The notes below the pieces were generated by a model that was not told the DNA's origin, searched no databases, and saw only the letters and a list, made by a program, of their open reading frames with translations. From positions 62,001-126,000 of the forward strand of contig NZ_MUXF01000001.1 of assembly GCF_003063295.1 (NCBI RefSeq): a stretch of 64,000 nucleotides of DNA. Reading direction: 5' to 3'. The translations under genes and the position numbers were made by a program. Positions 4,294-15,723 of the stretch are shown piece by piece. Each line of letters opens with the position of its first letter. The stretch's first letter is position 1. The DNA comes from Arcobacter lacus (lineage in GTDB: Bacteria > Campylobacterota > Campylobacteria > Campylobacterales > Arcobacteraceae).

Positions 4294-5403
4294 TCAAATT
4301 AATCTTTCATATATTTTAAATAATTTTTTTTCTTCAACATCCCAATTATATTTTTCAAGAATAGCTTTTTTACCATTTTGTCCCATTTGTTCAGCTTCTT
4401 TGGGATGAGAAACAATATATTCTATAGCTTCTGCTATCTCTTTTGGTTCAAGTGGGTTTACACATATTCCACAATTATTTCCTTCAACTATTTCTTTCCA
4501 AAGAATAATATCTGAAGATATTACAGGTAATCCAGCTACCATATATTCAAACATTTTTACAGGTAAAGCATCTAAATAATTTATTATTGGATGAAGTGTT
4601 ACAAGCCCTGCCTTAGATTTTTTATATAATTCTGCAATGTCCTCTCTTCCTAAAAATCCAAGTTCATTTACTTTTTGCCATCCATCGTAGTTTTTTACTT
4701 CTTTTTCTACAGTTTTTTCACTAAAAGAACCTGCTAAATTTAACCTAATATTATTTGTATGTTCCATAGCTTTTACTACTTCTTTTATACCTCGTATTTG
4801 TGCTATTCCGCCTACATAACAAACTTCATCTTTTTTTTCATTCCAAGGAGTATCATTTGAAAGTTCTCCTAAGATTGGAAAGTTATTTATATCTATACTA
4901 TTTTTATTTATCTTTAAAAATTTATCTTTTATATATGGAGTTGCTGTAATAATATAGTCAAACTTTTTACAAGCATATTTTTCATATATTTCAAAACTTT
5001 TAGAAAGCAAATTTTTGGCAGTTTTATTTAAATATGGTTTCCCTAAAAGTTGTTTTGGTAAATCTTCATGAGCATCAAATATCACTTTTTTACCCATTTT
5101 CTTAAGCTTCAATCCTATAGGTATAAGTTCTGGATCATGAAGATGATATATATCACTATTTAATTGAACTGCTTTTTGAAAAACCTTTTTTACAGTTTTT
5201 GTCATACGAGATATTCTACCACCAGTTTTTGCACCAACATCAAAAATATTTACATTGTTTTTAATTTCATCACCTTTACCATCAGCTACTACTAAACTAA
5301 CTTTATAAGCTTCATTTTTTGATAAAGAACTACACATTTTTAAAAATATTCTTGTATCATATCTAGCATGTGCTGATGTTAGATGAGTTATTTTAGTTTG
5401 CAT
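4294..5403 (-). CDS. GT4 glycosyltransferase
   Basis: This 369-residue GT4-type glycosyltransferase is one of three in the locus. The N-terminal domain includes [16 protein letters not shown] and [17 protein letters not shown]. That HDPEL pattern is common in O-antigen and exopolysaccharide GT4 enzymes. The C-terminal domain has [19 protein letters not shown], a donor-site region near [18 protein letters not shown], and ends with a typical helix ([19 protein letters not shown]). It abuts hisF2 (sharing one base) and is 1 bp upstream of the WbuB-like gene, so it is co-transcribed. Specificity is unknown. The amidino uronic acid made by neighbouring genes is a plausible donor, by context only. 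Confidence 0.8.
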
Positions 5404-6170
5404 TATTTATTTCCTAATAATTCTTGAATCTTTTGATATGGAGGATAGCTAATAAGTACACCTTTAAGTGGTCCTTGATACACAAACATACTTCCACAAG
5501 CTACAGCATCTACTTTTGAATTTTCAAAAACATCTTTTATATGATTTAGATTTCCAGCTCCTCCAAGAGCTATTATTGGTACTTTTGTATTTTCTTTTAT
5601 TTCTTTTAAAAGTTCAATATCATACCCTTTCATAATTCCATCATTATCACAAGAGTTTATCACTATTTCGCCAGCACCTAAAGACTCTACTTGTTTTATA
5701 AAATCAATATGATTCAACTTAGTGTTTTTTTTACCATTATTTATAAAAACTTTCTTATTCCCCCAAAAATCTTTTTTTATATCTATTGTTACTATTACTG
5801 ATTGATTTCCAAATATACTAGATGCTTCTTTTATAAGATTTGGATTGATTACAGCTTGACTGCTTAGAGATATTTTTTCAACTCCTAGAGCATATATTTT
5901 TTTCATTTGTTCTATATTTTTCACTCCACCACCATAACAAAGTGGCATAAAACATTCACTTGCAATGTCTTCTATCATTTTATAATTTGGTTCTTTATTT
6001 TCTACACTTGCATCGATGTCTATAAACATCAATTCATCTACTTCTTTTTCATTAAATATCTTAATAGCATTTATAGGATCACCTATATATGTAGGTTTTT
6101 TAAATTTTTCAGTTTTATAAAGTCCACCTTTATGTAAAAGTAGACAAGGGATTACTCTTTTTTGTAGCAT
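5403..6170 (-). CDS. hisF2: HisF-like ammonia-channelling subunit for sugar amidotransfer
   Basis: This 255-residue TIM barrel is homologous to imidazole glycerol phosphate synthase HisF. It begins [16 protein letters not shown], where true HisF proteins have PCLDVKDG, so the first catalytic aspartate (Asp11) is Leu. The second (VTIDIKKD region) remains. Together with its place beside hisH2 and wbpG, this argues against histidine synthesis. In P. aeruginosa O5 the HisH2/HisF2 pair is proposed to pass glutamine-derived ammonia to WbpG for amidino-sugar formation. C-terminal phosphate-binding loops ([18 protein letters not shown]) are kept. It overlaps hisH2 by one base. Confidence 0.87.
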
Positions 6171-6775
6171 TACATCTCTCCAAAGTTTTTGAGTAGTTGC
6201 ATACCAAATTTATGACTTTTTTCTGGATGAAACTGTACACCATAAATATTATCTTTATAGATACTACAAGTAAAAGTTTGTCCATAATTTGCTGTTGCTA
6301 AAATATTTTTTTCATTATTACAAACCACATGATATGAATGTACGAAATAAAATCTATTATCTTCCAAATTTTTAAAAATATCATTTGTATTTGTAGGATT
6401 TATTTTATTCCAACCCATATGAGGAATAGATAAACTCTTATCCTCTAAATCAAACTTGATAGTTTGTGCATCTATCCATCCAAGACCTTTTTCTTTTCCT
6501 TCTTCACTTGAGTTTGTCAAAAGTTGCATCCCAAGACAAATACCTAAAATAGGTTTTTTATTTTCTAATACCTCTTTTTCTAAAGTTTCAAAAAATGGTG
6601 CATTTTTTAAACTATTTATACCATGGTCAAAAGAACCAACACCAGGTAAGAGATATTTATCAGCATTTTTTATAGTTTCAATATCTGATGTGATGATGGA
6701 TTCAACTCCCACTTTTTTAAACATATTATAAATAGATTTTAGATTTCCTATTCCATAATCAAGTATTGCTATCAT
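6170..6775 (-). CDS. hisH2: HisH-like glutamine amidotransferase for sugar amidotransfer
   Basis: This 201-residue class I glutamine amidotransferase would hydrolyse glutamine and deliver ammonia through HisF2 to WbpG. The start MIAILDYGIGNLKSIYNMF is HisH-like. The nucleophile elbow is LGICLGMQLL (Cys near residue 80), and the His-Glu pair is in GVQFHPEKSH near the C-terminus, so the triad is complete. It lies 8 bp downstream of wbpG and overlaps hisF2. No other his genes are nearby, which supports a sugar role rather than histidine synthesis. Confidence 0.88.
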   Translation of the reverse strand: MIAILDYGIGNLKSIYNMFKKVGVESIITSDIETIKNADKYLLPGVGSFDHGINSLKNAPFFETLEKEVLENKKPILGICLGMQLLTNSSEEGKEKGLGWIDAQTIKFDLEDKSLSIPHMGWNKINPTNTNDIFKNLEDNRFYFVHSYHVVCNNEKNILATANYGQTFTCSIYKDNIYGVQFHPEKSHKFGMQLLKNFGEM

Positions 6776-6783
6776 TTTTTACC

Positions 6784-7932
6784 TTACGAATAATTTGAGA
6801 TTTTTCTACCAAGTAGTTTTGATACAAAATTTTGAACTTTTTTCATTCTATTATATTTTTCTGTCATATTAGGGAAATCACTATATTTATGTGATGGCAT
6901 TTGAAGAATATTTTCAAACTCTTCATTGCTAACTCCAAGCTTTTTAGCTATATACTCTTTATCTTCTTTTAACTCTTTTTCATCATACAATGGTTTATCA
7001 AGTTCTTTTAACGCTTCTTCTCTACTCATTTGCCCTGCTACAATAAGACTAGCTAAATGAGGTTTTCTTTTATCATAACCAAACTTCATAGGTAGCCAAT
7101 AATTTTGGAAAAATTTAGTAAATACTGATTCTCCATGTTTTCTAGCATACTCTTTATAACCTATTTTATCTTTTAATTCTTGTAATGCTTCACTTTTTAT
7201 ATATGGCATAAAGTTTAGAGGTCTTATAGTCTTCATTTTTTTGATAAATGGATAATATAAATATAGTTCATAGAAACCTATTGTTTTATAATTTTTTAGT
7301 TTTTTAGTGCCAAATTTATTATGAATAGCGTGTAAATTATCTGCATCCATAGCACTCCAATGCCAAGCTTTTGGGAATATGCTCTCAGTTGCTAAATTTC
7401 CACCACTTATTACATAATTTATTCCATACTTTGTAGCAAAATGATAAAGTGAAGCAAAAAAAGCATGGTCTTGTGGTACATCTTGATTTGCTATAGCTGA
7501 TTTTAAATATGCTAACTGTAAATCTCTCATCTCTTCCCAATCTATTACTATTGTATGTAAATGCCATCCACAATAATTTACAATATTTTCTATATTTTGC
7601 ACAGCTAATTCACTGTTCCATCCACCATCTACATGAACAACTAAAGGTCTAATACCAGCTTCATAAAGTTTTAATGCAAGATATGAACTATCAACTCCCC
7701 CACTAAGACCTAAAATACAATCATAATGTTTATGAACATTTTCTTTTTTCATTTTTTCATATATAGCCTGAAGTTTTTTAGCACCTTCATCATTTGGAAA
7801 CCATCTTTTTGATGTAAATTCATCAAACTCTCTACAGTGATTACAAACCCCTTTTTCATCAAAGTTAATTTCTGGATCAGTTGTGTCCATTACACATTTT
7901 GTACATATTTGATATTGTTTTTTATTGTTCAT
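6784..7932 (-). CDS. wbpG: N-acetyl sugar amidotransferase, WbpG/PseA family
   Basis: This 382-residue enzyme is predicted to turn an N-acetyl group of an activated sugar into an acetamidino group. The N-terminus has paired cysteines (CTKCVMDTTDP and GVCNHC, residues 9-38) that probably bind zinc. The PP-loop ATP site LGLSGGVDSSYLALKL follows at about residue 74. These two features define the family. PseA of Campylobacter acts on pseudaminic acid, but no pse genes are here. wbpABDE are, so a 2,3-diacetamido uronic acid as in P. aeruginosa O5 is the better substrate guess. It overlaps the upstream GT4 gene by 11 bp. Confidence 0.87.
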   Translation of the reverse strand: MNNKKQYQICTKCVMDTTDPEINFDEKGVCNHCREFDEFTSKRWFPNDEGAKKLQAIYEKMKKENVHKHYDCILGLSGGVDSSYLALKLYEAGIRPLVVHVDGGWNSELAVQNIENIVNYCGWHLHTIVIDWEEMRDLQLAYLKSAIANQDVPQDHAFFASLYHFATKYGINYVISGGNLATESIFPKAWHWSAMDADNLHAIHNKFGTKKLKNYKTIGFYELYLYYPFIKKMKTIRPLNFMPYIKSEALQELKDKIGYKEYARKHGESVFTKFFQNYWLPMKFGYDKRKPHLASLIVAGQMSREEALKELDKPLYDEKELKEDKEYIAKKLGVSNEEFENILQMPSHKYSDFPNMTEKYNRMKKVQNFVSKLLGRKISNYS

Positions 7933-9085
7933 TATTTATTCCTACTTCATAATATTTCATAGCATTTTTTATAAAAGCATTTTTTCCAAATTTCTCTTCT
8001 ACATCACCTCTAAGTTTTTCTTTATCATATTTACTAGCATTTTTATACATAGTCATCATAGCATCTTCTAGTTGTAGTTGATTTTCTACATTTATCAAAA
8101 TTCCATTTTGTTTATTTACTATATCTTCAGGTCCACCACATTTTGTAGCAATAAGTGGTAATCCACATGCTAAAGCTTCTATAAGGACTACTCCAAAAGT
8201 TTCAAAATTACTTGATAATACAAAACAATTTGACTTCATCATTTCATCTCTTACTTTTTCTTGTGATATTCGACCTAAAAAATTAACTTGTTTTTGAATA
8301 TCTAACTTTTTAACTAAACTTTCTAAATATTTTTTCATATATCCACTTCCAGCAATATTTAGATATATATTATGATTTAATTTTGCTATTTTTTCAAAGC
8401 TTTTAATTAATAATTCTTGATTTTTATTTTTATCAAGACTAGCAATATGCAAAAAAATAAAATTTTTAGATATCTTATTTTGAAATTTTTTTTGAAAGAA
8501 AAAATCATCTACTATATTTGGTAATAAATCTATGTTAGTTTTAGTATATTCTTTTAAAATATTATTAAAACTAGAACTAACTGCTGTAACTTTTAATGCA
8601 TTTTTTGCTACATTTCCAATTGATTTAATTTTTTCATTTGATATCTTATTTTGTACAAAAGCTGAGCTATGCTCTGTAACAATATATTTTATTCCATACT
8701 TATCTTTTAAAAATTCAGCAATTACTCCTGCATATAAAAAATTATGTGCGTGAATAATATCTGGCATTCCAAACTCTTCTATATATTTACTGTATAGTTT
8801 ATCAGCCATTTGTACATAATTATTTTTTAAAATTTTGAATGGTATGTATCTGTGAGGAAAATATAATTGTTTATATTTTCTTTTAATATTTATATTTCCT
8901 TTTTTTTCTTCTTTTTTATAAATATATTTACTAACTAAATATCTAGGAGTAATATATCCAACAGAAAGTACACCTATTTGATGTTTATCATTACTTAATG
9001 CATTTGCTTGATGATATTGAAAAATACCTCCTAAAGGTTGTGTTTGAGTTATAAAATGTTCAGATGAAATTATTAATATATGCAT
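7922..9085 (-). CDS. GT4 glycosyltransferase (WbpH-like position)
   Basis: This 387-residue GT4 glycosyltransferase has a clear EX7E motif in ETFGVVLIEALACGLPLIAT near residue 296. The N-terminal domain includes MHILIISSEHFITQTQPLGG and IIHAHNFLYAGVIAEFL; the donor domain includes LHIASLDKNKNQELLIKSF and LNIAGSGYMKKYLESL. It overlaps the polymerase gene by 13 bp upstream and wbpG by 11 bp downstream. Its place directly before wbpG/hisH2/hisF2 recalls P. aeruginosa wbpH, which also flanks that trio. That is a positional argument, not proof of the same linkage. Confidence 0.82.
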   Translation of the reverse strand: MHILIISSEHFITQTQPLGGIFQYHQANALSNDKHQIGVLSVGYITPRYLVSKYIYKKEEKKGNINIKRKYKQLYFPHRYIPFKILKNNYVQMADKLYSKYIEEFGMPDIIHAHNFLYAGVIAEFLKDKYGIKYIVTEHSSAFVQNKISNEKIKSIGNVAKNALKVTAVSSSFNNILKEYTKTNIDLLPNIVDDFFFQKKFQNKISKNFIFLHIASLDKNKNQELLIKSFEKIAKLNHNIYLNIAGSGYMKKYLESLVKKLDIQKQVNFLGRISQEKVRDEMMKSNCFVLSSNFETFGVVLIEALACGLPLIATKCGGPEDIVNKQNGILINVENQLQLEDAMMTMYKNASKYDKEKLRGDVEEKFGKNAFIKNAMKYYEVGINNEQ

Positions 9086-10329
9086 TTTTTAGCCTTGTTA
9101 TAATTAAATAATCTAATGCTTAAAACCATTAATAGTACAAATGGTAAAAAAGATTGATATCCTGTAATAAAATTATTAGTTAGCATAACTACAAAACCGG
9201 TAATACAAGAAGCTAAAAGTGTGAAATAATATATCTTTAAATTGATATCAGAACCTTTTTCCATTTGTTTTTTAAAAAAAAATGGATAAAAAAGTAAACT
9301 TATAGATGCAATCACTCCAAATAAACCAAATCTACTTATCAAAGATAACCACTCACTATCCATAGTCATATCTACAAAATAAGATTTAGCAATACCATAT
9401 CCAAAAATTGGTGAATTTAAAAAAGATTGATAAGCTATCTGAGCATTTTCTAATCTAACTAAAATAGAATTATTTTCACCTTCAAAAAGTAATTGAATAC
9501 CAATAAAAACATAACTAAAAAGGGGGAATAACACAACTATACCTAAGCTAATAACTATCAGTAAAAATATCTTTTTAGTCCAATACCCTTTAAGGGTAAA
9601 AAAGATAAAAATTAATGAGAATACTGTACCAATCAATATAGTTCTTGACTGAGTAAAAAATAAAACTGTAAATAAAAGTAAAAATAGTACTAAATATCTT
9701 TTCCTATTTGTAAATAAAAAACTAAAAAAGTTAAATAAAATAAAATAAGCAACAATTATTGCACCATCATTTGGACCACTTCCCGTGACTGTGATTCTTC
9801 TTATACTATGTTCTATAGCTACATATATTTGACTTTCTGAAGTATAAAATAAAGAAAAGTATTTACCTACTCCAAAAGGATCAAAATATTCTAAATAACC
9901 AACAAGTATGATATAAAAAGAGCCATAATAAAATATTTTAAAAGTCATATCTAAAAGCTTTACGACAGGAACATATCCTAATAAAATGGCAAATAAAAGA
10001 ATTTTACAATACCTAATAAATTCATTTATATCACCACTATTAAATGGTACATTCATAACTAAATAACCATAAAGGATAGAAATCATCACTGAAAATAAAA
10101 ATAATAAAATTGGAATAATATATTTTTCTACTACTATATATTTAGTATGTAATATCAAAATAGGAATACATAATAAAATCAAAATATCGTCTATTCTTAT
10201 ACCTAATCTACCAATATCTATAGGTATAAAGAAAAATATTGAAAGTAAAATTATCAATATAATAATATTTATATTATTTAAACTATTTTTTAAAAATAAA
10301 TGTATATTTAAATATATCTTATTTGTCAT
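9073..10329 (-). CDS. wzy: O-antigen polymerase/ligase-like membrane protein (probable Wzy)
   Basis: This 418-residue protein has about ten or eleven predicted membrane helices and a larger non-hydrophobic loop near residues 260-330. That loop includes LVRLENAQIAYQSFLNSPIFGYGIA, split here for reading as LVRLENAQIAYQSF then LNSPIFGYGIA; the NSPIFGYG pattern is typical of the Wzy_C/O-antigen ligase family. A Wzy polymerase joins repeat units at the periplasmic face. WaaL ligases share the fold. The position between wzx, glycosyltransferases and the wzz-headed operon favours the polymerase. It overlaps the kinase gene by 11 bp. Confidence 0.78.
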   Translation of the reverse strand: MTNKIYLNIHLFLKNSLNNINIIILIILLSIFFFIPIDIGRLGIRIDDILILLCIPILILHTKYIVVEKYIIPILLFLFSVMISILYGYLVMNVPFNSGDINEFIRYCKILLFAILLGYVPVVKLLDMTFKIFYYGSFYIILVGYLEYFDPFGVGKYFSLFYTSESQIYVAIEHSIRRITVTGSGPNDGAIIVAYFILFNFFSFLFTNRKRYLVLFLLLFTVLFFTQSRTILIGTVFSLIFIFFTLKGYWTKKIFLLIVISLGIVVLFPLFSYVFIGIQLLFEGENNSILVRLENAQIAYQSFLNSPIFGYGIAKSYFVDMTMDSEWLSLISRFGLFGVIASISLLFYPFFFKKQMEKGSDINLKIYYFTLLASCITGFVVMLTNNFITGYQSFLPFVLLMVLSIRLFNYNKAKKCIY

Positions 10330-11176
10330 TTAATAAACTCTTAAAGTTGTCATAATAATTCTTATCTAGCTGTATTTTGAAATTATGTTCTTGTGATACC
10401 CTATATTTAATATATAGAAATAATTTATTTTTATCAATTACAGAATTATCAATCATTTGCTTGATACATTCAAAAAAAGATACTTTCAATTTTCTAGATT
10501 TTTTGTCAACTTCAAAGTGCAGTAAATCAAATCCAGCAATTCCTTCCATTACAAACCTGTCAAGATCTATTAAAACTATTTTTTTGCTCTTAGTCTGCAT
10601 AATATTATTTTCAGTTAAATCTCCATGCATGGGACAAGACTTAATTTCTGTATCTTCAAAAAAAACATTTTCTATCCCGCAAATTTTATTCACCTCATAA
10701 AGATTATAAAATAATTTATCTTTTATTGAAGATAATTTAATTTTTTTTGACTTTGCATTAAAATATTCTAATATTTTTTTTACTTCATTGTTTGATAGAG
10801 TTGTATTTTCTAAATTATCCATTTCATAGTATTTGTCAACTATATCTAATTTATAATCTACCAAAGTATTAAACTCTGAATTTTTTAATATTAAATAATT
10901 ATCATAATTCTTTTTTAATGATTCTTTAGAAACATCTCCAAGAGGAATCTTAATCACTTTATTCGTATAAAAAAGAATCAAACTACCAGTTGAAGAAATG
11001 GAAAATTTATGAAATCCTTTTAACCTTTTTAATAAAATAAATAATTCTCTATTTAAGTATTTTTTATCTACATACAAATTTCTTTTTGATAATAAAAAAA
11101 TCAATATATAAATTATAAATGGATTTTTTAACTGGAATAATAATTTCATAATTATTTTTTTTATAGTTAGTTTCAT
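10319..11176 (-). CDS. APH/lipopolysaccharide-kinase-like protein of unknown substrate
   Basis: This 285-residue protein has the fold signature of aminoglycoside-phosphotransferase/LPS-kinase enzymes. The catalytic loop is CPMHGDLTENNIM (around residue 188) and the metal-binding aspartate is in IVLIDLDRFVMEG (about residue 205). The N-terminal lobe is divergent, with an early hydrophobic stretch (residues 10-30) that may attach it to the membrane. It could phosphorylate a sugar, a polyol or the lipid-linked glycan. It overlaps the nucleotidyltransferase-kinase fusion by 4 bp, so the two probably act together. I do not recognise a named family and the substrate is unknown. Confidence 0.65.
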   Translation of the reverse strand: MKLTIKKIIMKLLFQLKNPFIIYILIFLLSKRNLYVDKKYLNRELFILLKRLKGFHKFSISSTGSLILFYTNKVIKIPLGDVSKESLKKNYDNYLILKNSEFNTLVDYKLDIVDKYYEMDNLENTTLSNNEVKKILEYFNAKSKKIKLSSIKDKLFYNLYEVNKICGIENVFFEDTEIKSCPMHGDLTENNIMQTKSKKIVLIDLDRFVMEGIAGFDLLHFEVDKKSRKLKVSFFECIKQMIDNSVIDKNKLFLYIKYRVSQEHNFKIQLDKNYYDNFKSLLNDK

Positions 11177-12486
11177 CTTTTTAAATCCAACATAAGACTT
11201 ATTATTTCATCATATATTATATTTTGGCTTTGATCAGCATTAATTACTTTCACTTTATCTACTTTATACATGTATTCTTTATAAACTTTATTCACTTCAA
11301 GCATTTTTTCAAATGAATAATCTTGTTTTCTATTGTATGCGATTTCAGGACTTACATCAAGAAAAATTGTTAATTCAGGTTTTTTCCACATTTTAACACC
11401 AAAGATTTTTTGATATATTCTTTTAATTAATGGTTTTTTATTATTCTTTTCTTTATTTTGAATTCTACCTATTTCATCATCATAAATATATCTATCTGCA
11501 AGCACTATATTTCCAAATTGAATATAGTATAAAGCAATGAGAATTCTTAATTGTCTATCAACTAAAGACAATGTTCCTAATAAAAATTTAAAAAACTTCT
11601 TTTTAACTTCTTTTTTTAGTAATCTTTGTAATCCTGGTATCCAATATTCATTATTTCCAAAATATACTTTTTTAATTCCAGTATTTTTAAAAAATTCTAA
11701 ATTTTCTATATACCCAACTGTAGTACTTTTACCAGCTCCATCTACTCCAACAAAAGCAACTAAAAATCCTTTATTTCTTATTTTGTAAGATGGATATTTC
11801 AGTTTTTTTTGAATCCCTTTTATTTTGCCCAAAAGGAGTTTATATTTTTGCTTAGATGATAATTCACTATTATTTTTAACATTTTTAAGAACTTGCATCA
11901 AATATTTTTCTTTTAACTCTTGCCAACTTCGAAATTTTAAAATATCTTGAGAAATAACATTCCAATCTAAAGAAATTTCTTCTTTTAATATTCTTAAAAT
12001 ATAACCATTTTCAATTTTATGTATTTTTATTAACTCTTGTAATTCTATAAGATCTTCTTCTCTCTCGCTCAAAGATGCAACTCTCATAATAAACATTAAA
12101 GGAATATAATCTGCTAAATCTAGAATTTTTACCCTGTCATATTTCATTCTATAAGAAAGCTTATCTACTTCAATAGAAAAATTATACGGTTTATAAGGTT
12201 TAGGTCCAAACTGTACTTGTACATTTACATCCAGCATTACAAATTTATGTGTAACTTTATCTATTCCCATATAATAATAAGGCTTCTCTTTTTTTTGTAC
12301 TTTAAAAAAATTATTATTTAGTACAATAGAATCAAAACTGTCTATATCATTTTCATCTAATAATATATCTATGTCACCTCTTCCACCATTTAAATCTTCA
12401 TCTAAATGATTTAAACTTTTATAAACAATATAAGCTATTCCACTATCATTTAATTGATCAAATAAATTTTTATATATTTCTAACAT
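11173..12486 (-). CDS. Nucleotidyltransferase-like/thymidylate-kinase-like fusion protein
   Basis: This 437-residue protein has two parts. Residues 1 to about 200 resemble a minimal nucleotidyltransferase domain, with GGRGDIDILLDENDIDSF near residue 34 giving the DxD metal motif. Residues 240-437 form a P-loop kinase of the thymidylate kinase type: FVGVDGAGKSTTVGYIENL, the DRY motif in VLADRYIYDD, and KPELTIFLDVSPEIAYNRK before a lid. It is embedded between wzx and the APH-like kinase with overlaps on both sides (7 and 4 bp). TMK-like proteins occur in other O-antigen loci but I know no proven activity. A role in phosphorylating or activating a sugar or alditol is inference only. Confidence 0.7.
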   Translation of the reverse strand: MLEIYKNLFDQLNDSGIAYIVYKSLNHLDEDLNGGRGDIDILLDENDIDSFDSIVLNNNFFKVQKKEKPYYYMGIDKVTHKFVMLDVNVQVQFGPKPYKPYNFSIEVDKLSYRMKYDRVKILDLADYIPLMFIMRVASLSEREEDLIELQELIKIHKIENGYILRILKEEISLDWNVISQDILKFRSWQELKEKYLMQVLKNVKNNSELSSKQKYKLLLGKIKGIQKKLKYPSYKIRNKGFLVAFVGVDGAGKSTTVGYIENLEFFKNTGIKKVYFGNNEYWIPGLQRLLKKEVKKKFFKFLLGTLSLVDRQLRILIALYYIQFGNIVLADRYIYDDEIGRIQNKEKNNKKPLIKRIYQKIFGVKMWKKPELTIFLDVSPEIAYNRKQDYSFEKMLEVNKVYKEYMYKVDKVKVINADQSQNIIYDEIISLMLDLKR

Positions 12487-13721
12487 TTAATACCTTTTTT
12501 AACGAATTCATATGAACGATATAGTTTAAAGACTATCACCAAGCTATTTGAGATACTCATTATAATTAGTCCAAATACTATATTATCTATAAGCAAACCC
12601 AAAAAAAGAGAGGCTATTGCTGTTAGTGTAATTAAAACACTTAAAATAAAATTCTCTATCTGCTTTTCATAGTATAAATAAGTAGTTGTAGTAAAAAGAT
12701 TGCTTAAAAATTTCATATATAACAATGGTAAAAGAATTTGAGAATAAACACCAGCAACAAGCCACTCTTCTCCAAATACAAATCCAAAAAGAGGTTCTAA
12801 AAAGAACCATAATAAAATAAATGGAGGTAAAAGCATTGCATTTATTTTAATAAATTTCATCTTATAAAATTTTTGTTTATTTTTTTCTATTGAAAAAGAC
12901 TGATAAAAAACTTGGAAGAATGAAGAACTTATTATTGATATTGGTGATGCAACAACCCTATTTGCAAGAGAATAAAAACCAGCAATGTTTAGCGTAAAAA
13001 AAGAACTAATAATAACTACGGGAAGTTGTGCTGTTGCTGTGCTAAAAAATGATTGTATCATAGTAATTTTAGGAAATTTTATATATCTTTTTGATAATGC
13101 CAAAACTTTTACTTTTTCAAAATTTTGAAATAAAACTCCTATCTTTACTTTTTTAATTAAAAAAGCTACAACAATCGCTTGTGCTATAAATTGACTAATT
13201 ATTAAACCATCTTTACCAAAATCCTGTATACCAAAAACAATACTTGAAGTTCCATTTGTTAAACTTTGTGTAACTTTATTCATTGATAAAGTTTTATATT
13301 GTTTTTTTCTATTTAGCCAATAATTAAAAGTTTGATAACAACCAATTAAAAAAACTGAAAAAGGAATTAAGTATAGAAAATGTCCAAGAGAATTTTTGCC
13401 TAATAAACCTTGAAAAAAATCAAAAAATATAAAAATTATACAAAAAATAATAGAACTAAATATTGTATTTATTAATAAAGATAATCCAACAATATTTATA
13501 GCATTTTTTTCATATTTTGGAAGCATTATGGCTAAATCATACTGTCCATTTGTAAAAACTGCCAATAATGAAATTATAGCAATATAGAATGCAAATATTC
13601 CAAAATCTTCTGGTGTATATATACGAGTAAGTATCGGACTTATTGCAATAGGAATAATTTGTGCAATCGTAGTGCCTGTCATAAGTGTCAAAACATTTTT
13701 TACAAAATCATTATTATTCAT
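12480..13721 (-). CDS. wzx: O-unit flippase Wzx (polysaccharide transporter)
   Basis: This protein of about 413 residues has some twelve membrane helices and belongs to the MOP/PST flippase family. It would move undecaprenyl-linked repeat units to the periplasm. The N-terminus (LTGTTIAQIIPIAISPILTR, then IYTPEDFGIFAFY) is characteristic of Wzx/RfbX. I chose the ATG at 13721, which begins one base after the acyltransferase stop and has GATGGA seven bases upstream; in-frame starts at 13733 and 13736 lack a ribosome-binding site. It overlaps the downstream fusion gene by 7 bp. Confidence 0.86.
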   Translation of the reverse strand: MNNNDFVKNVLTLMTGTTIAQIIPIAISPILTRIYTPEDFGIFAFYIAIISLLAVFTNGQYDLAIMLPKYEKNAINIVGLSLLINTIFSSIIFCIIFIFFDFFQGLLGKNSLGHFLYLIPFSVFLIGCYQTFNYWLNRKKQYKTLSMNKVTQSLTNGTSSIVFGIQDFGKDGLIISQFIAQAIVVAFLIKKVKIGVLFQNFEKVKVLALSKRYIKFPKITMIQSFFSTATAQLPVVIISSFFTLNIAGFYSLANRVVASPISIISSSFFQVFYQSFSIEKNKQKFYKMKFIKINAMLLPPFILLWFFLEPLFGFVFGEEWLVAGVYSQILLPLLYMKFLSNLFTTTTYLYYEKQIENFILSVLITLTAIASLFLGLLIDNIVFGLIIMSISNSLVIVFKLYRSYEFVKKGIKC

Positions 13722-13722
13722 T

Positions 13723-15723
13723 CTAATTTCCATCAAAAATAATATTCTGAATATATCTAGATAATAATTTTGAACCTTCTTGACTTAAATGATCATCATC
13801 AAGATACAATAATTTATTATTTATAATACCATAGCACCATTTTTCATCACAAAATAATTTTTCAGTATCAATTACATTTACATTTTGATACTTTTTGTAC
13901 AACTCAAAAATTAATTTTCTATATTCTTCATTTCTATCAAAATAGTCAATATAATTAATTTTACAACTTTTTGTAAATATATTAAAAGGTCTTTTTAAGC
14001 AATGTATTGGATTAAATCCTAATTCAGGATGTTCTAAAAGATAATAGAAACTATATTTTTGTGAATTAAAATATCTCATTAATAAATTATGTGAATTTAT
14101 CCATTTCGATTTGTGTTCTTCTAAGGTAGATGTTCCTTCATATTTTTTTAATATTAAATCATTGCTATTATCAATATCTCCAAATCCTTTTAAATACATA
14201 TTTTTAGGACCTCTTTCTACAAAAATTACTTTATCAATATAAAATTTCTTATTTTCTAATAACTTATAAGTATTAGCAATATCTTTTTTACATTTTTCTT
14301 TAGCTTTTTCTGTTTTTCCTGAGTAAGTATCTATTAAAGGAGAACAACCATCTTGAGCTAATAGCAATACCCCCCCCCCATCTTTTTGACTCATATAATA
14401 ATTAGATAACCCATCATATATGGCTAATGCATGGCTATCACCAATAATTACCATATATTTTTTAGTTATATCATCTGAAGTTGCTTTTATATAATTATTT
14501 GTTGGCTTATATCCTAAAATTTTTGTTACTAAAGATATCCCTAAATCATTTTGGGCAGGAGTTCTTATAAACTGTTTTTCAAAACTTTCATTTGATTCAA
14601 GATGACTTCTATTTGATAGTCCATTCTTTTTTGATATATAATCTCCTACAAATCCTAAAATTAAAACTACAATACATAATTTAAAAACAAAAATATAACT
14701 ACTTTTTACTCTAGCATAAATTTCTATATATCTATATGTAAAATATGATAAAAGCACAGATAAAAAAATAAGTAATAGTCCAATTGAAATATCTAGTTTT
14801 ACTCCAAATATATGAGTAAAACTTATCAAAACATAATGCCATAAATATAATGGAAAACTAATTAGACCTATAAATACTAAAGTATTATTTGAAAACATCG
14901 TTCTTGATTTATCATAAGATATACTAAGTATTAATAAACCACTAAAAAATACAATTAAAAAAGTTTTATATGTATTAAAAGAACTATTATTATATGAAAG
15001 AACAATAGAAATAAAAAAAAACAAGTATATTAAATATTTATATTTATTTAATATATAAAATATATTTTTATATTTATAAGAAACTATAAATACTAAACCA
15101 CCAAAAGCTAATTCCCATGCACGAGATAAAGTATGATAAAATTTATCAAATTCAGTTATTAAAGGTAAAGAAAAAAGTATTAAAAATAGTATGGATAATG
15201 AAATAACTATATTTACTCTTGTTTTATATAAAAATATTAGAAGTAGTGGCCAAAATATGTAAAACTGTTCTTCAATTGCCAATGACCAAAAATGTAAAAG
15301 TGGTTTTAAAGATGCAGATTCATCCCAATATCCAACTTCTTTTATGAGTCTAAAATTTTCATAAAAAAGTGCAGATGATTTTATATGCTGTCCAAGTTGT
15401 TCAAACTCACTTGGAAACATAAATAAATACCCAATAAGTAATGTAGTAGTTAAAACTACTATTAATGCAGGAAATATTCTTCGTATACGATTTCTATAAA
15501 ACTCTTTTAAAGAAAAACTGTTTGATTCTAGTTTTGTATATATTATTTGTGTTATCAAATATCCAGATAATACAAAAAATATATCAACTCCTACATATCC
15601 AAATGAAAAATATTTTGGCCATATATGAAATAGAAGAACAAGAGATATTGCTATACCTCTTAATCCATCTATTGAAGAGTTATACTTTAGACTATGGTTA
15701 ACTATTGGAATAAAAGTTTTCAA
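13723..15723 (-). CDS. OafA-type O-acyltransferase with SGNH domain; poly-G contingency gene
   Basis: This 666-residue protein has an N-terminal acyltransferase-3 membrane domain (SSIDGLRGIAISLVLLFHIW at residues 16-35, FFVLSGYLIT) with about ten helices to residue 360. A periplasmic SGNH hydrolase-like domain follows, with GDSH at residues 428-431 and DDDH in LYLDDDHLSQEGSKLL near the C-terminus. It should O-acetylate the glycan. The coding strand holds ten consecutive G's (14370-14379, residues 449-452). In this sequence the frame is open. With nine G's a stop follows three codons later, and with eleven G's about 24 codons later. It occupies the place of wbpC (also an acyltransferase) in the O5-like order. 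Confidence 0.9.
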   Translation of the reverse strand: MKTFIPIVNHSLKYNSSIDGLRGIAISLVLLFHIWPKYFSFGYVGVDIFFVLSGYLITQIIYTKLESNSFSLKEFYRNRIRRIFPALIVVLTTTLLIGYLFMFPSEFEQLGQHIKSSALFYENFRLIKEVGYWDESASLKPLLHFWSLAIEEQFYIFWPLLLIFLYKTRVNIVISLSILFLILFSLPLITEFDKFYHTLSRAWELAFGGLVFIVSYKYKNIFYILNKYKYLIYLFFFISIVLSYNNSSFNTYKTFLIVFFSGLLILSISYDKSRTMFSNNTLVFIGLISFPLYLWHYVLISFTHIFGVKLDISIGLLLIFLSVLLSYFTYRYIEIYARVKSSYIFVFKLCIVVLILGFVGDYISKKNGLSNRSHLESNESFEKQFIRTPAQNDLGISLVTKILGYKPTNNYIKATSDDITKKYMVIIGDSHALAIYDGLSNYYMSQKDGGGVLLLAQDGCSPLIDTYSGKTEKAKEKCKKDIANTYKLLENKKFYIDKVIFVERGPKNMYLKGFGDIDNSNDLILKKYEGTSTLEEHKSKWINSHNLLMRYFNSQKYSFYYLLEHPELGFNPIHCLKRPFNIFTKSCKINYIDYFDRNEEYRKLIFELYKKYQNVNVIDTEKLFCDEKWCYGIINNKLLYLDDDHLSQEGSKLLSRYIQNIIFDGN

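Follow-up and report, generated by a model that had tools for sequence, protein, structure and literature searches.

The lic system (LicA, LicD; fukutin, FKRP, CpsC) combines an APH-fold kinase with a transferase of the nucleotidyltransferase (NT) fold, makes phosphodiester decorations on surface glycans and, to our knowledge, has no thymidylate kinase (TMK) part. For LicD-family NT-fold proteins, the available portion of one paper describes CDP conjugates used in capsule synthesis (PMC11666461). We analyzed two genes, A and B, in a 64,000-nucleotide stretch of Arcobacter lacus DNA (the window), and found a like pairing of a predicted APH-fold kinase with a probable NT-fold domain, LicA being the best match of the gene B model. 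Unlike the lic system, gene A had no LicD/fukutin (PF04991) hit among its Pfam matches at E <=1, and no separate CTP:phosphocholine cytidylyltransferase gene was noticed in the locus. LicD membership of gene A failed by sequence, and LicD-like chemistry was retained as an analogy.

Another described pair is PsmK/PsmN of pseudomycoidin, grouped here with PadeK relatives, in which PsmN is presumably an NTP_transf_5 member. This pair differs from genes A and B in its substrate, a lasso peptide, in its kinase, which is HprK-type and not APH-type, and in having no TMK-like part. It resembles them in that a kinase is partnered with an annotated nucleotidyltransferase: in the available part of the report, PsmK phosphorylates a residue, to which PsmN then attaches hexose (PMC9266682). 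Related lasso kinases are named HPr kinases in an excerpt of a second report (PMC7533575). A full-text literature search over titles and abstract openings, those of roseobacter biofilm-plasmid papers included, returned no description of the kinase, NT and TMK-like trio described below, and no precedent accounting for the role of the TMK part. In the portions available, thymidylate kinase is mentioned in unrelated senses in two papers (PMC4275268, PMC12445080), and an APH-like kinase is named in gene neighborhoods, without this trio, in a third (PMC12419801).

The gene pair and its predicted domains

All features of the window given below lie on the minus strand. Gene A (11173-12486; 437 aa) and gene B (10319-11176; 285 aa) are intact ORFs sharing 4 bp. 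The upstream neighbor of gene A encodes a Wzx flippase (12480..13736; PF13440, 9.5e-25) and overlaps it by 7 bp, and the downstream neighbor of gene B encodes a Wzy polymerase (9073..10329; PF04932, 1e-9), with an overlap of 11 bp. The intact ORFs and the Pfam matches of both flanks bear out the original prediction that the pair sits between wzx and wzy. Its view that the pair stands apart from the known sugar pathways also held, with a role separate from that of the acetamido/acetamidino-sugar genes of the locus.

Gene B alone scored under the Pfam cut-off for APH (PF01636; 14.7 versus 23.2 bits), and the cut-off was exceeded by the relatives at L010, L011, L013, L017 and L076. We found the APH/choline kinase signature, an HGDxxxxN loop plus D-x-[DE], in gene B. 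The catalytic loop HGDLTENN (aa 184-191; 10604..10627) has H, D and N invariant in relatives (alignment A6), and the metal-binding motif DLD (aa 204-206; 10559..10567) holds an Asp invariant in alignments A2 and A6. An HMM built without the clade of gene B detected it with E 6e-7. Foldseek placed its predicted model (pLDDT 66) nearest LicA choline kinase and APH(2'') (E 7e-5 to 7e-4, TM ~0.4). The clade-out score and, tentatively, the predicted fold support its earlier designation as an APH-like kinase. Gene B and its relatives also gave weak RIO1 matches in Pfam. A hydrophobic N-terminal stretch (11087..11143; top 19-residue hydropathy 1.82) is weak evidence of possible membrane contact.

The N-terminal part of gene A (aa 1 to ~225, an approximate boundary; 11812..12486) was delimited as an NT-like domain by a leave-clade-out HMM (E 1e-4) and by profile-profile comparison. 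With NTP_transf_5 (PF14907), hhalign gave 84-91% probability and E 7e-6 and 1e-6, against E >=0.07 for unrelated pairs. Gene A itself had no NTP_transf_5 match in Pfam at E <=1, and its relatives scored 24.0, 18.5, 21.2 and 14.2 bits, under the 31.2-bit cut-off. The probable NT fold of this half is assigned only through relatives. Its putative active-site residues are G37-D38-I39-D40 plus D86. Both Asp of the D-x-D (D38, D40; 12367..12375) are invariant across 11 aligned NT domains, and the third carboxylate, D86 (12229..12231), lies in a column of alignment A7 where Asp makes up 90% or more; the L021 member has Glu. The AlphaFold model of gene A had a mean pLDDT of 47.8 and was kept out of the fold search.

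The C-terminal part of gene A (aa 238-437; 11176..11775) is a TMK-like P-loop kinase domain. It scored 32.9 bits against Thymidylate_kin (PF02223), above the 27-bit Pfam cut-off, and E 4e-20 with a leave-clade-out HMM; its best solved-structure matches were TMKs. The Walker A motif GVDGAGKST (aa 247-255; 11722..11748) occurs in 11 of the 12 TMK-like sequences, the twelfth (L003) having ambiguous bases there, and the DRYIYDD signature (aa 331-337; 11476..11496) keeps DR[YFH] plus the Asp in all 12. With the N-terminal half read through its relatives, gene A agrees with its original description as an NT-TMK fusion.

This domain shares the P-loop, the DRY motif and sequence similarity with thymidylate kinases. 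It differs from them in lacking EPGG and SxxAY, which we take to be the TMP-recognition motifs, and in scoring 38.2 bits, below the 83.25-bit cut-off of the dTMP kinase equivalog TIGR00041 (NCBIfam). Both motifs are missing from all 12 family members and are present in the separate tmk of the same genome (119 bits). Given the absent motifs and this separate tmk, we rejected thymidylate kinase identity for gene A.

Recurrence of the kinase, NT and TMK-like parts

Overlapping genome searches within the same phylum covered 347, 347, 298, 337 and 337 genomes; G035 was not among the matches of either 337-genome search and was perhaps outside those draws. In the phylum sample alone, the kinase/TMK-like association was found in 6/6 versus 0/26 genomes (Fisher p 1.1e-6). 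We identified TMK-like domains of the gene A type at 13 polysaccharide loci that count as independent, with four Leisingera plasmids taken as one, in Campylobacterota, Pseudomonadota, Bacteroidota and Actinomycetota. The Campylobacterota label was assigned by way of the Campylobacteraceae relative L002. An APH/RIO-type kinase lies within a few genes of the TMK-like part at all 13, and an NT is recognizable at 12, the thirteenth having the motif alone. A kinase or TMK part occurred in none of 27 control Wzx-centered loci, which were picked by PF13440 only; 23 of these carry a relative of a window GT4 glycosyltransferase or sugar transferase, and up to four are perhaps not polysaccharide loci. 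The original prediction had proposed a survey of O-antigen loci for the same pair. By the contrast of 13 loci with 27 controls, the gene pair is a recurring association, beyond chance and no local oddity.

All three models (kinase, TMK and NT) had the positive loci as their training set, which predetermines how they score there; independent of model training are the clade-out test and the Streptomyces case. In the latter, a held-out Streptomyces plasmid locus located by TMK similarity alone, an APH kinase was found with one gene in between, and an NT is recognized by its motif only (BLASTP 0.006; no significant hhalign match).

The trio is laid out in four ways: NT-TMK plus kinase, separate genes, one 823-aa kinase-NT-TMK protein, and one 651-aa NT-TMK-kinase protein. 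A single Hymenobacter protein aligns collinearly with three separate L017 genes (kinase 1e-39, NT 3e-15, TMK 3e-73; E-values refer to a database of 19 sequences). At L021, a YrbL kinase (1.3e-36) is fused to NT-TMK, and this YrbL-type kinase matches neither the APH motif nor the APH model. The NT of L020 is a true NTP_transf_5 located ~5 kb away, and in control L045 an NT stands alone, with neither kinase nor TMK. The NT-TMK fusion had been described as unusual. This stands for the phylum sample, where few genomes carry it; it does not stand more widely, since the fusion recurs with the kinase in distant phyla, even as a triple-domain protein. Close relatives of gene A or B gave no match on plasmids by tblastn, close relatives of gene A gave none on phages, and three scans of viral contigs returned no match.

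Candidate roles of the three parts

The recurrence of the three parts together, split or fused, in distant sugar clusters suggests an undescribed unit for adding phosphate-bearing groups to surface sugars. Glycan phosphorylation or polyol activation, both raised originally, is the foremost class of explanation for genes A and B. Within it, we see roughly an even chance that the two genes form one three-part catalytic unit, which would attach a phosphate-containing group to the repeat unit of the surface polysaccharide ahead of its flipping by Wzx. The folds (that of the NT through relatives), the conserved catalytic residues, the co-occurrence and the fusion in two orders are read directly from sequence; from them we infer substrate, step order, product and membrane location.

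In this scheme, the APH-fold kinase would first phosphorylate either a sugar within the lipid-linked unit or a small alcohol, giving a phosphomonoester. Attachment of a nucleotidyl, glycosyl or alcohol partner by the NT domain would then yield a phosphodiester, a step modeled on PsmK/PsmN or on LicD/fukutin enzymes, which use other substrates. The TMK-like domain might phosphorylate the phosphomonoester once more, or it might re-phosphorylate the nucleotide freed by the NT step. The window genes are distant from other members (NT half, clade-out E 1e-4) and could have drifted to another substrate. More tentatively, we propose that the trio may be an undescribed APH-fold kinase/NT/TMK-like system of at least four phyla, fusible into one polypeptide, which would equip lipid-linked repeat units of surface glycans with substituents of a new class, joined through a phosphodiester or a diphosphate, often with a dedicated GT4.

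Such a GT4, with a YACEP..GSE..GW start, was found in 6/12 triad loci and in the Streptomyces locus, versus 0/27 controls. It also fits precursor supply, which we consider possible yet doubtful: a sugar or alcohol in free form would be phosphorylated by the kinase and turned into its nucleotide-activated form by the NT, with help from the TMK-like part on the nucleotide or on a second phosphate; the partner GT4 would transfer the product. The APH-fold kinases do include small-molecule kinases (choline kinase, methylthioribose kinase). However, this GT4 type is missing from the window, L002 (a 3.6-kb contig) and L003 sets, and extra sugar-biosynthesis genes common to every locus were not seen. 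We also know of no sugar nucleotide synthesis by a Pol-beta-type NT.

Decoration of the glycan was further weighed against a regulatory unit that would phosphorylate or nucleotidylate a synthesis protein (Wzz, Wzy or a glycosyltransferase). Proteins can be substrates of minimal NTs and of APH-like or RIO-like kinases, and the weak RIO1 matches of gene B and its relatives are in keeping with this. The fold of gene B is nevertheless nearest small-molecule kinases, and the other genes vary between loci, which leaves no obvious shared protein target save glycosyltransferases; we regard this role as improbable.

A WbdD-type kinase chain terminator, also put forward originally, is largely refuted and very unlikely. 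O-antigen capping by kinases exists, and in the available part of one paper the K. pneumoniae O7 terminator kinase is compared with AmiN, and WbdD-type terminators are described as combining a methyltransferase and a coiled-coil ruler with an ABC transporter that bears a carbohydrate-binding module (PMC11231755). WbdD and ORF6-O7 resemble genes A and B as kinases at work in O-antigen assembly; theirs are ABC-transporter systems, whereas this locus is of the Wzx/Wzy type, Wzt_C had 0 matches in the whole genome, and genes A and B had no methyltransferase match in Pfam. Termination would also leave the NT and TMK parts without explanation. Hardly credible is a diverged thymidylate kinase lying by chance beside two unrelated neighbors, which the Pfam family match favors and which the separate tmk, the motif losses and the repeated co-occurrence and fusion oppose.

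Phosphate substituents alter how cell surfaces are charged and recognized. Should the three parts belong to a single pathway, finding the trio in a sequence would be enough to predict a phosphate-bearing glycan, and the split, paired and fused versions of the trio would be a test set for unknown glycan chemistry. Plasmid records annotate the trio genes as 'hypothetical protein' and 'phosphotransferase', and the trio is thus readily overlooked in surface-polysaccharide loci; the TMK-like part could also be mistaken for a housekeeping enzyme when metabolic models are built.

The window locus further encodes its own GT4 glycosyltransferase (7922..9085). By eye, look-alike GT4 genes stand beside the cassette in L002 and near the cassette in L003.

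Genes A and B in the window

We confirmed the reported presence, between wzx and wzy, of gene A (11173-12486, minus strand, 437 aa), a fusion of a nucleotidyltransferase-like (NT) and a thymidylate-kinase-like (TMK) part, and gene B (10319-11176, minus strand, 285 aa), a protein of the APH/choline-kinase fold; both ORFs are intact. Gene A overlaps wzx by 7 bases and gene B by 4, and gene B overlaps wzy by 11. The 21 listed genes at 794-22488 share a single orientation, and neighbours overlap or stand apart by no more than 26 bases, indicating that one transcript is likely. This Wzx/Wzy locus encodes a sugar transferase, a NeuD/PglB-type acetyltransferase, two aminotransferases, two UDP-sugar dehydrogenases, three GT4-type enzymes, an SGNH acyltransferase and Wzz. 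It also carries an AglZ/HisF2, HisH and WbuX acetamidino set (5403-7932), from which we predict an acetamidino sugar in the polysaccharide. As established, the cluster's sugar pathways involve no such kinase or NT. G+C content is lowest (0.21-0.25) in the block 7922-15723 and 0.27-0.31 in all other listed genes but one; a low-G+C centre is the usual appearance of the exchangeable middle of such loci.

The C-terminal half of gene A matches PF02223 (32.9 bits, cut-off 27), and its closest solved structures are thymidylate kinases. A role as thymidylate kinase was rejected, since the genome has a separate tmk (119 bits, different contig) whose EPGG and SxxAY motifs are missing from 12/12 TMK-like sequences compared. 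These sequences retain Walker A and DR[YFH]..D, suggesting that the fold was kept while the nucleotide-recognition parts were altered. In the gammaproteobacterial relative (L003:8001-9362), the P-loop region consists of ambiguous bases, leaving Walker A unreadable.

The N-terminal half has no NT match of its own in Pfam, and its relatives match NTP_transf_5 with scores under the cut-off. A profile of 11 NT domains matched NTP_transf_5 proteins at 84-91% probability, clearly separate from the negatives, and both DxD aspartates of gene A are invariant in the 11-row alignment, one row being a standalone relative. The motifs HGDLTENN and DLD occur in gene B, whose N terminus is hydrophobic. Its AlphaFold model (pLDDT 66, pTM 0.61) gave LicA choline kinase (E 7e-5) and APH(2'') (3e-4) as top fold matches, with TM only near 0.4. 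A PDB search with a profile of seven gene B relatives found APH enzymes (1e-5) and choline kinases (1e-3).

Arrangements of the trio

Two MAGs, one of Campylobacteraceae (L002, 62%) and one of a gammaproteobacterium (L003, 34%), encode relatives of gene A, each adjoined by a gene B relative. The ends of the L002 contig translate to the strings MCIRDS and VSYTHLRAHETR, presumably sequencing-adapter artefacts, so its flanking genes call for caution. Searches of the phylum Campylobacterota matched 2/347, 4/347 and 2/298 genomes, six combined (G000, G035, G090, G231, G260, G362). A plasmid search returned eight records (four Leisingera, Agrobacterium leguminum, Legionella adelaidensis, Hymenobacter swuensis and Streptomyces sp.), and further plasmid queries added no record. 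All 13 independent loci were read, the four Leisingera records counting as one.

The fusion adjoins the kinase in the window, both MAGs, G090 (L016), G362 (L015) and Legionella (L013). A single gene separates them in Leisingera (L010, L012, L077, L078), where the L077 gene at the kinase position is annotated hypothetical, and they lie four genes apart in one gene run in Agrobacterium (L011). In G260 (L020), TMK adjoins the kinase and a true NTP_transf_5 (5.7e-44) lies about 5 kb off. The G035 locus (L017) has separate consecutive genes for NT, GT4, kinase and TMK. Hymenobacter (L014) encodes kinase-NT-TMK as a single 823-aa protein, along which the three separate L017 genes align in the same order, and G231 (L021) encodes NT-TMK-YrbL kinase as a single 651-aa protein in an LPS-core-like locus. 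The alignment of the split NT gene (L017:4912-5910) runs beyond NT into the TMK start of the Hymenobacter fusion and has no P-loop; this gene looks like a carrier of a decayed TMK domain, with an active second copy further down.

The weakest plasmid match, the Streptomyces record (TMK part 18% identical), was examined last. Its TMK-only gene scored E 3e-20 with a model trained without it. Upstream of it lies a gene for an APH kinase scoring 25.3 bits (cut-off 23.2), the two being separated by one GT4 gene. A 271-aa gene with GRGDLDAA may be a candidate NT (BLASTP 0.006, hhalign not significant). Thus, NT is present in 12/13 loci and by motif only in the Streptomyces locus.

The Leisingera loci are plasmid-borne with dTDP-rhamnose genes, and the L010 and L012 plasmids carry LuxR/AHL genes; in this they resemble roseobacter biofilm plasmids.

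Controls and reverse searches

A Wzx search of 150 genomes (27 positive) provided 27 control loci of 10.8-19.9 kb from 26 genomes, leaving out the window's genome. The kinase played no part in choosing the positive loci. Motif searches found the kinase in 0/27 and the TMK part in 0/27, and the model search gave no kinase match. One weak TMK model match (L037, E 8e-4) resembles guanylate kinase by eye. In the phylum sample, kinase and TMK-like part occurred together in 6/6 genomes versus 0/26 control genomes (Fisher p 1.1e-6).

The one real NT match among the controls was a standalone 217-aa protein of the same family (L045:7141-7791, minus strand; NTP_transf_5-like, 2.4e-4), in an O-antigen-like locus without kinase or TMK part and adjoined by a 241-aa protein.

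The kinase profile matched 16/337 genomes: three strong matches were known triads, all in the training set, and 13 were weak (E 4e-8 to 1e-5). The NT profile matched 5/337, four triads and the standalone NT, all in its training set. Taken together, a recurrent, fusable three-part module for surface-glycan synthesis is well supported.

Predicted function and partner genes

Since all three active sites appear intact, three reactions would be expected. We favour a phosphate-containing substituent that the repeat unit acquires before it is flipped, because most of the loci read are either of flippase/polymerase type or LPS-core-like, the N terminus of gene B is hydrophobic, and the closest two chemistries point this way. 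PsmK/PsmN (reviewed in PMC9266682) and the LicD/fukutin enzymes (PMC11666461) use an NT-annotated or NT-fold enzyme to attach a sugar or phospho-alcohol, which in PsmK/PsmN follows a kinase step. Glycan phosphodecoration by a kinase and an NT-fold enzyme would be a known kind of chemistry; a categorically new one is possible. The TMK step, the weakest element of the model, would add a second phosphate or recycle nucleotide. Full-text searches of open-licence literature, the only basis for judging the trio's novelty in print, yielded no description of it.

The main alternative is that the trio supplies a precursor to a dedicated GT4. One GT4 type, recognised by the start YACEP..GSE..GW, was found in 6/12 triad loci versus 0/27 controls (3/6 versus 0/26 in the phylum sample alone, p 0.004) and is absent from the window clade. 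A DUF1972-annotated family, named from annotation in L011 and L014, occurs in 5/12 versus 0/27. In Streptomyces, the locus includes a gene related to this GT4 and one annotated DUF1972. WbdD-type chain capping, offered in the original prediction, was not supported.

In the LPS-core-like locus L021, a Kdo/WaaP-family kinase and the YrbL kinase fused to NT-TMK occur together (1665-2408 and 5777-7732), a lead on the role of YrbL. In the cluster with the split triad, a further NTP_transf_5 gene, a true one (1e-38), accompanies a gene for an HprK-like kinase (6e-6) (L017:12552-13451 and 14399-15268, minus strand), a pairing also described for lasso peptide loci (PMC7533575).
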